This document shows, one piece after another, positions 28,310-40,416 of a stretch of 54,413 nt of DNA (its first letter is position 1; every line of letters starts with the position of its first letter). This stretch comes from Pelatocladus maniniholoensis HA4357-MV3 (lineage in GTDB: Bacteria > Cyanobacteriota > Cyanobacteriia > Cyanobacteriales > Nostocaceae): contig JAHHHW010000068.1 of NCBI GenBank assembly GCA_019359115.1, positions 1-54,413 on the forward strand, written 5' to 3'. The notes beneath the pieces are model-generated. The model was given only the letters and a program-made list of their open reading frames with translations. It was not told the origin of the DNA and made no database searches. Both the position numbers and the translations under genes were made by a program.

Positions 28310-28433
28310 AGTTATTAGTTAGTCATTGGTCATTGGTCATTGGTCATTGGTCATTGGTCATTGGTTATTCTCCCTGCTCCCTTGTCCTCCTTGTCCTCTT
28401 GTCTCCCCACACTCCCCACACTCCTCACACTCC

Positions 28434-29174
28434 TCACACTTCCTCAACTTCTTTAGACTGTACTAATGTCTTTTGAGATTCTGTCGGTACTGATGCGGGT
28501 AGGGTGCGTTGGGAAAATCCCCAGGTTAAAATTAGGGCGATCGCAGTAATCATTAACCATTGTGGTGGTACTAAATCTTCATTTACCACGCGCAGCAATA
28601 GGCGTAACCCCACAAGTGCAACAGTGATATAACCTGCGTCCTCTAGATTCTCAAATTCATCTAACCACCTAATAAACAAGCCTGCCATAAATCGCAGAGT
28701 AATCACACCAATCGTTGTCCCAGCCAGTACTAGCCAAGTTTCTTGGGAAACAGCGATCGCAGTGGTGACACTATCCAAAGAAAAAGCCAAATCTGTCAAA
28801 GCGATTACGGGGATCACTTGCCACAATGAACTAAAACGCGGGCCGTGATGGTGATGTTCGTTATCTTCTTCTGAAGTAAAGTGTTGGAATACCAGCCACA
28901 GAAGGTAAGCTGCACCTAGTAATTCAAATTGCCAGAACTTTTGTACCCAAGTAGCGGTGAGCAGTAGAGAAATTCGCAGGACATAAGCAAAAACTAGACC
29001 TATGTTGAGTGCTTGGTTTTCCAGCTTTTTGTCTTCTAGTCCTTGAGCGATCGCAGCAAGAGCAATAGCGTTATCAGCAGATAGCACCGCCTCCAAAAAC
29101 ATCAAAATCAGCAAAACTATAGCCGCTTCAATGCTGAGATGAAAATTAAGATAGTCAAAAATTTTGTCTAGCAT
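28434..29174 (-). CDS. TerC family membrane protein, 246 aa
   Basis: Seven or more membrane helices. Signature segments: EAVLSADNAIALAAIAQGL with the acidic residues in the first helix, a His-rich loop (EEDNEHHHHGPRF) near 105, and VIALTDLAFSLDSVTTAIAVS near 128, whose acidic pattern mirrors the first. This is the TerC/YceF family, linked to Mn2+ efflux and to tellurite resistance; the thylakoid homologue has a role in membrane protein insertion. Metal transport is the most likely role here (inference). Its C-terminal end is followed by a run of ACTCCTCACA-type repeats. Confidence 0.88.
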   Translation of the reverse strand: MLDKIFDYLNFHLSIEAAIVLLILMFLEAVLSADNAIALAAIAQGLEDKKLENQALNIGLVFAYVLRISLLLTATWVQKFWQFELLGAAYLLWLVFQHFTSEEDNEHHHHGPRFSSLWQVIPVIALTDLAFSLDSVTTAIAVSQETWLVLAGTTIGVITLRFMAGLFIRWLDEFENLEDAGYITVALVGLRLLLRVVNEDLVPPQWLMITAIALILTWGFSQRTLPASVPTESQKTLVQSKEVEEV

Positions 29175-37504: not shown

Positions 37505-37626
37505 AGACCTCTTGCAAAAGTCGAATGAACCCCCCTCAATCCCCCCGTTCACGGGGGGAAGATTTAGTTCCCTCCCCGTAAACGCTTAGGGTTAGGGTGG
37601 GGTAAAAATATTTTTGCAAGAGGTCT
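37505..37626. mobile_element. MITE, 122 bp, with the same ends as the IS at the window start
   Basis: Perfect 15-bp terminal inverted repeats AGACCTCTTGCAAAA (37505-37519) and TTTTGCAAGAGGTCT (37612-37626), flanked by ATA on both sides, a possible target duplication. The interior has a CCCCCCGTTCACGGGGGG hairpin and GGGTTAGGGTGGGGTAAAAA. No coding capacity, so it must be moved by a transposase elsewhere; the IS at 1-122 has an identical 15-bp end. Confidence 0.9.
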
Positions 37627-37793
37627 ATACTACTCGGTTAAGAAAAGCGACCAACCTAAAATCCAATATGCTTGGTGTTAAGCCCACAATCCTTTGTACC
37701 AGACGCGTAGCAATATTCCGCAGGGTAATTTCGCGTCTCTACGTTCCCAAAATCGAAGCGAAAAATCTTTGCAGTATTAAAACTTTAAAAAAC

Positions 37794-37871
37794 AAAAAGC
37801 GCTTGGGAGTGTTACCGTGTTTCCACCCCAGGCGCTTTTCGTTTTACACTTGCTCCTCACACACAATTAAA
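37794..37871. ncRNA. Hairpin unit 1 of a tandem pair (possible small RNA)
   Basis: On the plus strand: an imperfect hairpin AAAAAGCGCTTGGGAGTG ... CCACCCCAGGCGCTTTT with a 12-base loop region, then GCTCCTCACACACAATT at 37852. It aligns over its whole length with unit 2. On the minus strand the hairpin ends GCGCTTTTTGTTTTTT, which is a good intrinsic terminator, so the transcript could run either way. Confidence 0.5.
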
Positions 37872-37940
37872 AGATATCACTACTTTTAGATGATGACAAG
37901 TACTTAAGATAAAAAATTTTCTGTTCAATAATTTGCCATT

Positions 37941-38018
37941 AAAAAAGCGCTTGAAGTGTTACCATGTTGCCACTCCCAGCGCTTTTTACTTCAAACTTAC
38001 TCCTCACACACAATTAGA
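37941..38018. ncRNA. Hairpin unit 2 of the tandem pair (possible small RNA, Yfr1-like motif)
   Basis: On the plus strand: AAAAAGCGCTTGAAGTG, loop, CCACTCCCAGCGCTTTTT, then ACTCCTCACAC at 37999-38009. That 11-mer is the unpaired core of the cyanobacterial small RNA Yfr1 as published. Here the strong hairpin lies 5-prime to the motif and no second strong terminator follows, so the match to the full Yfr1 layout is incomplete. On the minus strand the same unit is a terminator hairpin for purH-side transcription. Confidence 0.5.
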
Positions 38019-38093
38019 TATTAACATTGTGTTTATCTATCTATAAGCATAATATAGACACTTTGGCAAGTGTAACATCCTACTTAAGATAGA

Positions 38094-39629
38094 TTAATGT
38101 AAAAAGTGACGTATGCCTGTGAAAACCATGACTAAACCAAGTTCATTTGCAGCTTGAATCGAATCTTGATCTCGTAAACTTCCACCTGGTTGCACGATCG
38201 CCATAATTCCAGCCATCGCCGCAGTTTTCACAGAATCATCAAAGGGGAAAAATCCATCACTAGCAAGGACTGCACCTTTAGCTTTCTCACCAGCTTGTTC
38301 AAGGGCTATTTTCACTGAACCAACGCGGTTCATTTGTCCTGCACCAACACCTAAAGTTGTGCGATCGCTACTTACAACAATGGCATTCGATTTGACGTGT
38401 TTACAAACTTTCCATGCAAACAGTAATTCTGCTAATTCTGTGGGTGTGGGTTGGCGTTCGGTGACGATTTGCCATTGACTGGTATTGGCGACAATATCAT
38501 CTGAAGCTTGGACTAGGAAACCACCTGCGATCGCTTTGACTGTTTCTTTGGAACCACTACTTAAATCTGGTAAAATCAAAACCCGTACTTTTGACTTCGC
38601 AGCCAGAATTGCTTTGGCGTCCTCTTCACATCCTGGTGCGACTACACATTCTAAAAATGTTTTCGTTAACTCAGTTGCTGTTGCAGCATCAATTGGACGG
38701 TTGAGGGCAACAATACCACCAAAAGCAGACACAGGATCAGCATTGAATGCTTTTTGGTAAGCTGCGGCAATTGTATCTCCTTGAGCTGTACCACAGGGAT
38801 TAGTATGTTTAATCACCGTAGCAGCAGGACTATCTGTGAATTCAGCGATGATGCGGCGTGCTGCTTCTAAATCAACTAAGTTATTGTAACTGAGTTCTTT
38901 GCCTTGCAGTTTAGTAGCAGCAGCCCAACCTGTGGAGTTTGCACCGCTTTGATACCAAGCTGCACTTTGATGGGGGTTTTCGCCATAGCGCAAAGATTGT
39001 AGTTGTTTTCCAGAAATAGTGAATGTTTCTGGTATCTCTATTTGTTGTGTTTTGAGCAGATAAGATGCGATCGCTTGATCATAACTAGAAGTATGCAAAA
39101 ATCCTTTCAAAGCACATTTTTGGCGAAATTCCAACGATGGTTCTGTGTGTTGGCGTAATTCCTGTAAATACTCGTCATATTGACAGGGATCGCACAATAC
39201 GGTCAAATGGGCAAAGTTTTTTGATGCTGCTCTCAGCAGAGTAGGGCCACCAATATCAATTTGCTCAATTGCTTCTGCTAATGTGACATCAGGTTTAGCG
39301 ATGGTTTCCTCAAAAGGATAGAGATTTACCACCACTAAATCTATTGGGCGAATTTGGTTATCTGTCAAATCCATCATATCTTGCGGAATATCGCGACGCG
39401 CGAGAATTCCTCCGTGAATGCGCGGATGTAGAGTTTTAACACGACCACCTAATATTTCTGGAGAGCCTGTGTAATCTGCGACTTTTTTAACTGGTAATCC
39501 CGCATTTTTGAGAGCTTGAGCAGTACCACCACTGCTAATCAACTCAAAATCAAATTCTTCTACTAAGCTACGAGCAAGTTCAATTAATCCAGTTTTATTT
39601 GATACACTCAACAGTGCAAGACGCGCCAT
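38094..39629 (-). CDS. purH: Bifunctional AICAR transformylase / IMP cyclohydrolase, 511 aa
   Basis: Catalyses the last two steps of IMP synthesis. N-terminal cyclohydrolase (MGS-like) domain: MARLALLSVSNKTGLIE, ELISSGGTAQALKNAG, GGRVKTLHPRIHGGILA and DLVVVNLYPFE. C-terminal transformylase domain: LRYGENPHQSAAWY, KELSYNNLVDLEAA, the catalytic KHTNPCGTAQGD near 265, and QANELGLVMVFTGIRHF at the end. I start it at ATG 39629, which gives the family N-terminus; the frame extends 11 codons further upstream. Upstream lies the palindrome cluster around the transposase. Confidence 0.96.
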   Translation of the reverse strand: MARLALLSVSNKTGLIELARSLVEEFDFELISSGGTAQALKNAGLPVKKVADYTGSPEILGGRVKTLHPRIHGGILARRDIPQDMMDLTDNQIRPIDLVVVNLYPFEETIAKPDVTLAEAIEQIDIGGPTLLRAASKNFAHLTVLCDPCQYDEYLQELRQHTEPSLEFRQKCALKGFLHTSSYDQAIASYLLKTQQIEIPETFTISGKQLQSLRYGENPHQSAAWYQSGANSTGWAAATKLQGKELSYNNLVDLEAARRIIAEFTDSPAATVIKHTNPCGTAQGDTIAAAYQKAFNADPVSAFGGIVALNRPIDAATATELTKTFLECVVAPGCEEDAKAILAAKSKVRVLILPDLSSGSKETVKAIAGGFLVQASDDIVANTSQWQIVTERQPTPTELAELLFAWKVCKHVKSNAIVVSSDRTTLGVGAGQMNRVGSVKIALEQAGEKAKGAVLASDGFFPFDDSVKTAAMAGIMAIVQPGGSLRDQDSIQAANELGLVMVFTGIRHFLH

Positions 39630-39656
39630 AATTTCCCAGTTTGATTTGATTAAGAC

Positions 39657-39896
39657 AAGCAATATCCCATCTGGGAATAAATTCCCAGGCTAAAAGCAAA
39701 ACTCGGCTAAAGCCAACTAAGAGGTTTTGATTAATTGTTATATTCTCTAATATTTGGAACTTAGAACATAGTCAGCTTTAGCTGAGTTGAGCTATTAGCC
39801 TCAGAATTAATTCTGAGGCGGACTAAAAGCAATATCCCCCTGGGAATAAATTTCCAGGCTAAAAGCAATATCCCCCTGGGAATAAATTTCCAGGCT
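39657..39896. repeat. REP-like palindromes and left 114-bp direct repeat
   Basis: Three copies of a unit AAGCAATATCCC then TGGGAATAAATTTCCAGGCT are present: 39657-39691, 39825-39860 and 39861-39896, the last two being tandem 36-bp copies. Each has an inverted core CTGGGAATAAATTTCCAG. Between the first and second lies a 114-bp block (39712-39825) with AGTCAGCTTTAGCTGA and the perfect palindrome CCTCAGAATTAATTCTGAGG; the same block recurs at 40426-40539 on the other side of the transposase gene with two base differences. Confidence 0.92.
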
Positions 39897-39978
39897 AACT
39901 AGGAAAATACCAAACTCAGTTTAATGCTTGTGGCGATCGCGGGAATACTAAGTGCAGAACATATCAAATACAACTTTT

Positions 39979-40416
39979 ATGTCTTTGTGGCGACTTTACT
40001 ATCATCTTGTTTGGGCTACAAAAAAATGCCAGCCATTAATCACCACCAATATAGAAACCGAACTTTATAGTTACATTATTGGCAAAGCCGATCAATTAGG
40101 TAGCATCATCCATGCAATTGACGGCGTAGAAAACCACATTCATTTAGTAGCTTCAATTCCGCCCAGAATTTCCATTTCTAATTTTGTCCAAAATATCAAA
40201 GGTAGCAGCGCTCATCATCTCAATCATCTATCCTCTTCCAAAGATGTGTTTATTTGGCAACGTGGATATGGCGTTTTCTCGCTAGGAGGAAAACAACTTG
40301 AGCAAGCTGTTGCTTACGTGAAAAATCAGAAAGCTCATCACCTGAACGGAACCACAATTTCATCTTTGGAAAATCATACTCATGAAGATGATAGTCCAAA
40401 GTTCAAAACCTCTTAG
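39979..40416 (+). CDS. Y1 (HUH) transposase, IS200/REP-associated type, 145 aa
   Basis: Single-strand transposase. MSLWRLYYHLVWATKKCQPL is the typical start; the HUH metal site is HIHL in VENHIHLVASIPP near residue 62; the catalytic Tyr is in EQAVAYVKNQKAHH near 118. Length fits IS200 TnpA/RAYT proteins. The frame can be read back 9 codons to a GTG, but ATG 39979 gives the family N-terminus. It is bracketed by near-identical 114-bp repeats and REP-like hairpins, and its stop codon lies within a 15-bp stem hairpin. The C-terminal 25 residues are polar and variable. Confidence 0.88.
   Translation: MSLWRLYYHLVWATKKCQPLITTNIETELYSYIIGKADQLGSIIHAIDGVENHIHLVASIPPRISISNFVQNIKGSSAHHLNHLSSSKDVFIWQRGYGVFSLGGKQLEQAVAYVKNQKAHHLNGTTISSLENHTHEDDSPKFKTS

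Follow-up and report, generated by a model that had tools for sequence, protein, structure and literature searches.

Two tandem hairpin units behind purH of Pelatocladus maniniholoensis are almost certainly Yfr2 (Cyano-1) small RNA genes

Introduction

Two short hairpin units stand in direct repeat behind purH of Pelatocladus maniniholoensis HA4357-MV3, in a window of 54,413 nucleotides (i.e., the whole stretch of DNA analysed here). One of them carries ACTCCTCACAC, which a preliminary description took for the core of the small RNA Yfr1. Which RNA is encoded by these units, if any, and on which strand? The answer developed below is that they are, with near certainty, two tandem Yfr2 (Cyano-1, RF01701) genes on the minus strand. 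The features are the following:

37790..37866 (77 nt), minus strand: unit 1, assigned to Yfr2/Cyano-1 small RNA, distal to purH (RF01701, 51.5 bits, cut-off 41)
37938..38013 (76 nt), minus strand: unit 2, assigned to Yfr2/Cyano-1 small RNA, adjoining purH, stem without the usual single-base bulge (RF01701, 41.4 bits, cut-off 41)
37852..37864, minus strand: unpaired 5' anti-Yfr1 motif of unit 1, GUGUGUGAGGAGC (sequence and predicted pairing with the Yfr1 of this genome)
37999..38011, minus strand: unpaired 5' anti-Yfr1 motif of unit 2, GUGUGUGAGGAGU (sequence and predicted pairing with the Yfr1 of this genome)
37871..37899, minus strand: promoter-like stretch of unit 1, TTGTCA - 17 - TATCTT with TG before the -10 (promoter scan 9/12, weak alone; layout common to 81 upstream stretches)
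38018..38026, minus strand: extended -10-like TG-T-TAATAT of unit 2, with a poor TTATAG at the place of the -35 (by eye; not among the promoter-scan sites)
38094..39662, minus strand: purH (AICAR transformylase/IMP cyclohydrolase), upstream neighbour of the units (ORF; Pfam PF01808, 412.6 bits for 38097-39626)

Results

Structure of the two units

Both units contain the GCGCT/AGCGC hairpin and the (G/A)CTCCTCACACACAATT tail that had been described. The starts of their repeat families are spaced by 147 and 148 nt; over 81 nt, the copies of unit 1 and unit 2 share 75% identity. On the minus strand each unit is composed of UUGUGUGUGAGGAG(U/C), a linker, a long stem with a loop of 12 nt (as obtained by folding) and a U run. 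The stems were said to differ while mostly keeping their pairing, and this is the case: each has 15 standard pairs over 16 positions (the single-base bulge of unit 1 excluded), the remaining position being a C-A mismatch in unit 1 and a G-A mismatch in unit 2. The loops, GAAACACGGUAA in unit 1 and GCAACAUGGUAA in unit 2, differ at two places. The single-base bulge is present in unit 1 and absent from unit 2, which is still accepted by Rfam; the counterparts of unit 2 in three genomes of the same genus, judged by eye, are also without bulge. Both units have an unpaired 5' stretch complementary to the Yfr1 core. In unit 1, the minimum-energy fold pairs four bases around this motif and the centroid leaves them unpaired.

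The z values of the folding energy are −3.52 (unit 1) and −1.56 (unit 2) on the minus strand, −4.95 and −3.22 on the plus strand. Folding energies by themselves do not separate the strands, nor do they favour the minus strand.

Concerning the surroundings, an IS200-like (Y1) transposase gene (39952-40416; Pfam PF01797, 95.4 bits) adjoins purH. An inverted-repeat element is found at 37505-37626; genome-wide, its end, AGACCTCTTGCAAAAG, has 48 exact copies, 26 forward and 22 reverse (none for the reversed control), and the element looks like a small MITE-like repeat.

Family identity

When all Rfam models were compared with the whole window, the only matches over cut-off were the two units, both to Cyano-1 (E 4.2e-6 for unit 1, 8.6e-4 for unit 2), and one tRNA. 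Unit 2 exceeds the RF01701 cut-off by 0.4 bits. The Yfr1 model (RF01116) has no match at cut-off on either strand of the window, and none up to E 5 over 37600-38200. The covariance search that had been proposed for Yfr1 thus returned its partner family instead. Ten other weak Rfam matches near the units (E up to 5), far under their cut-offs, were taken as chance. Cyano-1 is entered as RF01701 in a table of PMC2864571, and PMC8400943 gives the Cyano-1 motif as the characteristic feature of Yfr2 RNAs.

On the plus strand of unit 2, ACTCCTCACAC (37999-38009) lies within the reverse complement of GUGUGUGAGGAGU; unit 1 has GCTCCTCACAC and does not contain the full motif. What had been read as a Yfr1 core is the reverse complement of the motif by which the 5' end of Yfr2 pairs with that core. 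Since Yfr2 carries the complement of that core, the units looked like Yfr1 on the other strand. An attractive misreading is thereby settled, in that the Yfr1-like motif of the plus strand is, when read on the minus strand, the anti-Yfr1 motif of Yfr2. A core lying unpaired between two stem-loops, as in Yfr1, is absent from the units: each has a single stem-loop, and the core is represented by its complement alone. A duplicated or derived Yfr1, or an antisense species, had been proposed: a structured and duplicated RNA tied to Yfr1 is indeed found, but it is not Yfr1 or a derivative of Yfr1, RF01116 matching only elsewhere in the genome. The pair is a further member of an already known family, with a somewhat unusual second copy.

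Covariation and strand

The copies collected were 90, i.e., 87 Rfam matches in named loci, the two units of the window and one copy of locus L011 found by motif. After removal of 17 copies with a repeated identical body, the 73 distinct copies that remained, every one purH-linked, were aligned with MAFFT. RNAalifold gave 18 pairs, 10 of them with two-sided changes. For the 17 named pairs, 98.0% of the 1241 cells of the 73 copies pair and two-sided changes occur at 9 pairs. Two-sided cells amount to 69, vs. 19.7 ± 6.2 in shuffles, and covariation to 0.261, vs. 0.174 ± 0.006 (0/500 shuffles as high in both cases). In slid controls, i.e., with the partner moved by 1-3 columns, 39.6-60.8% of the cells pair, the structure having an advantage over these controls as it was derived from the same sequences. 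MAFFT is apparently one base off at the 3' arm of unit 2 of the window and of its L011 counterpart, which would lower the pairing count. Covariation over the 73 copies is thus strong.

On the minus strand, G-U accounts for all 85 cells with a one-sided change; the same cells are A-C mismatches on the plus strand. The minus strand is therefore taken as the strand under selection, and the earlier hint at it, i.e., the better terminator, was correct. Nine successive columns are invariant within the anti-Yfr1 stretch, the longest such run, and the 12-nt loop is also conserved across the aligned copies. Of the 90 copies, 89 have an exact GTGTGAGGAG in the unpaired 5' stretch (that motif had itself served to collect one copy of the set).

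Promoters and transcript

Upstream regions were compared for 81 distinct stretches, taken from the 89 copies in which the motif is exact; L013_5206, without it, was excluded. The -10 box TATNNT is conserved (A 95%, last T 93%), as is the G of the preceding TG (84%). A TTGCC-like box 17 nt further upstream is weaker (letters 49-77%). The promoter scan gave 5 sites, vs. 1.7 ± 1.2 expected, and the plus strand accounts for two of the 5. The terminator scan, which permits loops of 3-8, found none; the Yfr2 loop here is of 12.

Judging from the spacing, start sites would be near 37864 and 38011. Each Yfr2 gene may thus yield, from its own promoter-like extended -10, an RNA of about 77 nt with a terminator-like 3' hairpin. 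Transcription of the units in this strain is presumed by analogy with other species.

Other motif sites and the third copy

Seven ACTCCTCACAC sites are present in the genome, three of them within the window. The pair at 28420-28439 was discarded, being in a CTCC-rich simple repeat; ACTCCTCACACTCCTCACAC, at these positions, is within CTCC/CACA-rich repeats, a chance source of Yfr1-like motifs. Loci L004, L008 and L010 were also rejected as Yfr1 (no Yfr1-like folding in a 100-nt fold). GTGTGTGAGGAG is found exactly five times: in the two units, in a copy on contig C85, on C107 (a repeat of L008) and at C88:27875, the last being rejected as Yfr2 (no Yfr2-like fold, z 0.64). Three genomes of one genus (G008, G060 and G091) contain 23, 28 and 38 Yfr1 core 13-mers. 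The reversed control gives 15, 15 and 28, respectively, so these 13-mers are probably due to simple repeats.

The C85 copy (C85:148444-148513, L003) is a third Yfr2 copy that scores 38.7 bits with RF01701, below the cut-off of 41. It is a distinct sub-type, with GAGGAGCGAACCAG and the loop GAAACACGGCCA; its neighbours are HAD hydrolase and DALR-domain genes.

Distribution and genomic loci

A search of related genomes for the pair had been proposed. Both units are side by side in the three other genomes of the same genus that were searched, two of them with a unit-2 copy at 40.4 bits, i.e., just below cut-off. This recurrence and the E values of the Rfam matches exceed what chance would give. 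At the family level, RF01701 is found in 144 of the 145 genomes drawn (over cut-off in 143) and the 13-base Yfr1 core, as an exact string only, in 144; the two genomes in which one or the other is missing are incomplete (88% and 54%). In each of 40 family genomes, this one among them, RF01116 is matched once and only once; Yfr2 has 130 copies in these 40, one to five per genome.

These 130 copies fall mostly into two loci. (i) Seventy-eight are at most 6 kb downstream of purH on the same strand (75 within 1.2 kb). Yfr2 stands behind purH in 34/40 genomes, with one to four copies each; G037 has purH twice, with two Yfr2 copies at each. The genomes without purH-linked Yfr2 are G007 (no purH found), G009, G013, G022 (two copies 6.0 and 6.2 kb from purH, just beyond the limit), G024 and G034 (other contigs in the last two). 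(ii) A shorter lone copy (67-70 nt, <42 bits) is found elsewhere in 37/40 genomes, i.e., all except G013, G014 and G027. Around 20 hand-picked lone copies of these 37, a HAD hydrolase gene is a neighbour in 20/20 and a DALR-domain gene in 19/20; the polymerase-I-like neighbour (named from sequence) of the lone copy of this genome is seen in 3/20. Fifteen copies are of neither kind.

For named genomes, the best 80 PurH loci of a longer candidate list were used; the closest named PurH among the matches listed is that of Fischerella muscicola (95% identity). Its Yfr2 stretch and the G057 one are identical in a comparison of 400 bases, the two being thus not independent. RF01701 is over cut-off in 40 of the 80 loci (87 copies), always downstream of purH and on its strand. 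Yfr2 is found at 39/42 loci of heterocyst-forming relatives (by title; L011-L051 and L085, including L026, whose title carries no genus name), the misses being L038, L041 and L044. Among the other 38 loci, one has Yfr2 (Trichocoleus, L057).

In multi-copy loci, 9 of 80 copies have their nearest neighbour within their own locus (200 shuffles: mean 1.75, maximum 7), a test confounded by near-identical relatives in the set. There is some homogenisation within arrays, but little.

PMC6778093 places yfr2 genes at unconserved loci, for cyanobacteria at large. The two stable loci of this family differ from that view, which is a small addition; in the literature searched, a part of what is published, no account of Yfr2 beside purH was found. 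With two stable loci in one large family, orthologous Yfr2 copies can be compared, and deleted singly.

Pairing with the Yfr1 of this genome

RF01116 has a single match in this genome, at C139:13913-13977 (L009, 1479-1543; 61.8 bits), with the core unpaired between two stem-loops. It is between guaB (IMP dehydrogenase) and trxA (thioredoxin), all on one strand; PMC2190773 reports guaB and trxA as yfr1 neighbours in 25/31 and 27/31 genomes, respectively. It should be noted that yfr1 and the yfr2 array adjoin genes for an IMP-using and an IMP-making step, respectively.

Co-folding with this Yfr1 gives −19.7 (unit 1), −22.1 (unit 2) and −19.9 kcal/mol (C85 copy); 0, 1 and 0 of 300 dinucleotide shuffles, respectively, reach such binding energies. 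The plus-strand transcripts give −0.3, −1.2 and −0.7 kcal/mol. All three Yfr2 copies are thus predicted to bind this Yfr1, and the plus-strand transcripts are not. The 12-nt loop is unpaired in the predicted complex. Duplexfold, which ignores the self-folding of each RNA, gives long mixed duplexes (−39.3 to −39.8) and not the motif alone.

Discussion

Function

The single-stranded 5' end GUGUGUGAGGAG(U/C) of Yfr2 would pair with the core CACUCCUCACAC of the single Yfr1. Yfr1 so bound would be kept off its target mRNAs, and could occupy Yfr2 in return; a succession of promoters would increase the dose of Yfr2. By analogy, titration of Yfr1, i.e., a sponge, is probably the main job of these Yfr2 genes, though with a fair measure of doubt. 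According to PMC6778093, Yfr2 pulls down Yfr1 in Prochlorococcus, lifts the repression that Yfr1 exerts on a GFP reporter in E. coli, and is protected from RNase E cleavage when Yfr1 is bound. For Nostoc, PMC6974561 gives an EMSA of Yfr2 with Yfr1, a genome with four Yfr2 repeats and a rise of Yfr2 under nitrogen deprivation, and labels as hypothetical the step in which Yfr2 regulates Yfr1 negatively. Yfr1 and Yfr2 are among the small RNAs predicted from transcription start sites in Nostoc PCC 7120 (PMC4734099). RNase E cleavage and nitrogen-stress induction may extend to the present RNAs.

The same genes could have their main job on other targets (mRNAs or antisense RNAs), Yfr1 binding being secondary; this concerns function, not identity, and is a serious possibility, short of likely. 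In Prochlorococcus, pull-downs with Yfr2 recover many other RNAs, and its main partner may therefore not be Yfr1; 48% of the enriched Yfr2 peaks are antisense to RNAs, and Yfr1, Yfr2 and Yfr10 jointly touch hundreds of genes (all PMC6778093). The loop, conserved yet unpaired in the predicted complex, would fit such targets; the place of the longest invariant run, in the anti-Yfr1 stretch, argues for Yfr1.

A broader proposal, which we regard as improbable, is that two anchored Yfr2 sub-types (an array with several promoters behind purH, and the lone DALR/HAD variant) face the single Yfr1 as an antagonistic pair, maybe wired to purine branch-point flux or gene dosage, the array setting the titration of Yfr1. 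The branch point is suggested by PurH making the IMP that GuaB, encoded beside yfr1, consumes.

Alternative identities

It is very unlikely that the units are ordinary terminators of purH without a separate RNA. They come directly after this gene, and their A-run/T-run hairpins fold on both strands; but the near-invariance of GTGTGAGGAG, the conserved -10 before it and the presence of as many as four copies behind purH argue against mere terminators, as does the transcription of Yfr2 RNAs in other species (PMC2662882). A duplicated or altered Yfr1 read from the plus strand, for which the motif at 37999-38009 speaks, can be practically discarded, given the RF01116 results, the wrong order of hairpin and motif, the lack of the full motif in unit 1 and the 85 cells that would be A-C.

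Comparison with known systems

As Yfr2 genes, the units share with the Yfr2 family (Yfr2-5; Cyano-1, RF01701) (i) the unpaired 5' GUGUGAGGAG, a variable linker and a long stem with a 12-nt loop; (ii) several copies per genome, with a promoter-like stretch before each. PMC2662882 gives as Yfr2 traits a conserved unpaired 5' stretch, a conserved central loop of 12 nt on a long stem and a bulge at −4 from the loop. A Yfr2 gene would further have a promoter of its own and a separate transcript of about 80-95 nt; what is seen here in this respect are the promoter-like sequences. Unlike usual Yfr2 genes, two copies are in tandem behind purH, and unit 2 has no single-base bulge near the loop. Compared with Yfr1 (RF01116), the core is present as its reverse complement, and structure, order and locus are all other. 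With Yfr10 the relation is one of motif only: Yfr10 has the Yfr1 core in a loop (PMC6778093), whereas the units have its complement in their 5' tail.
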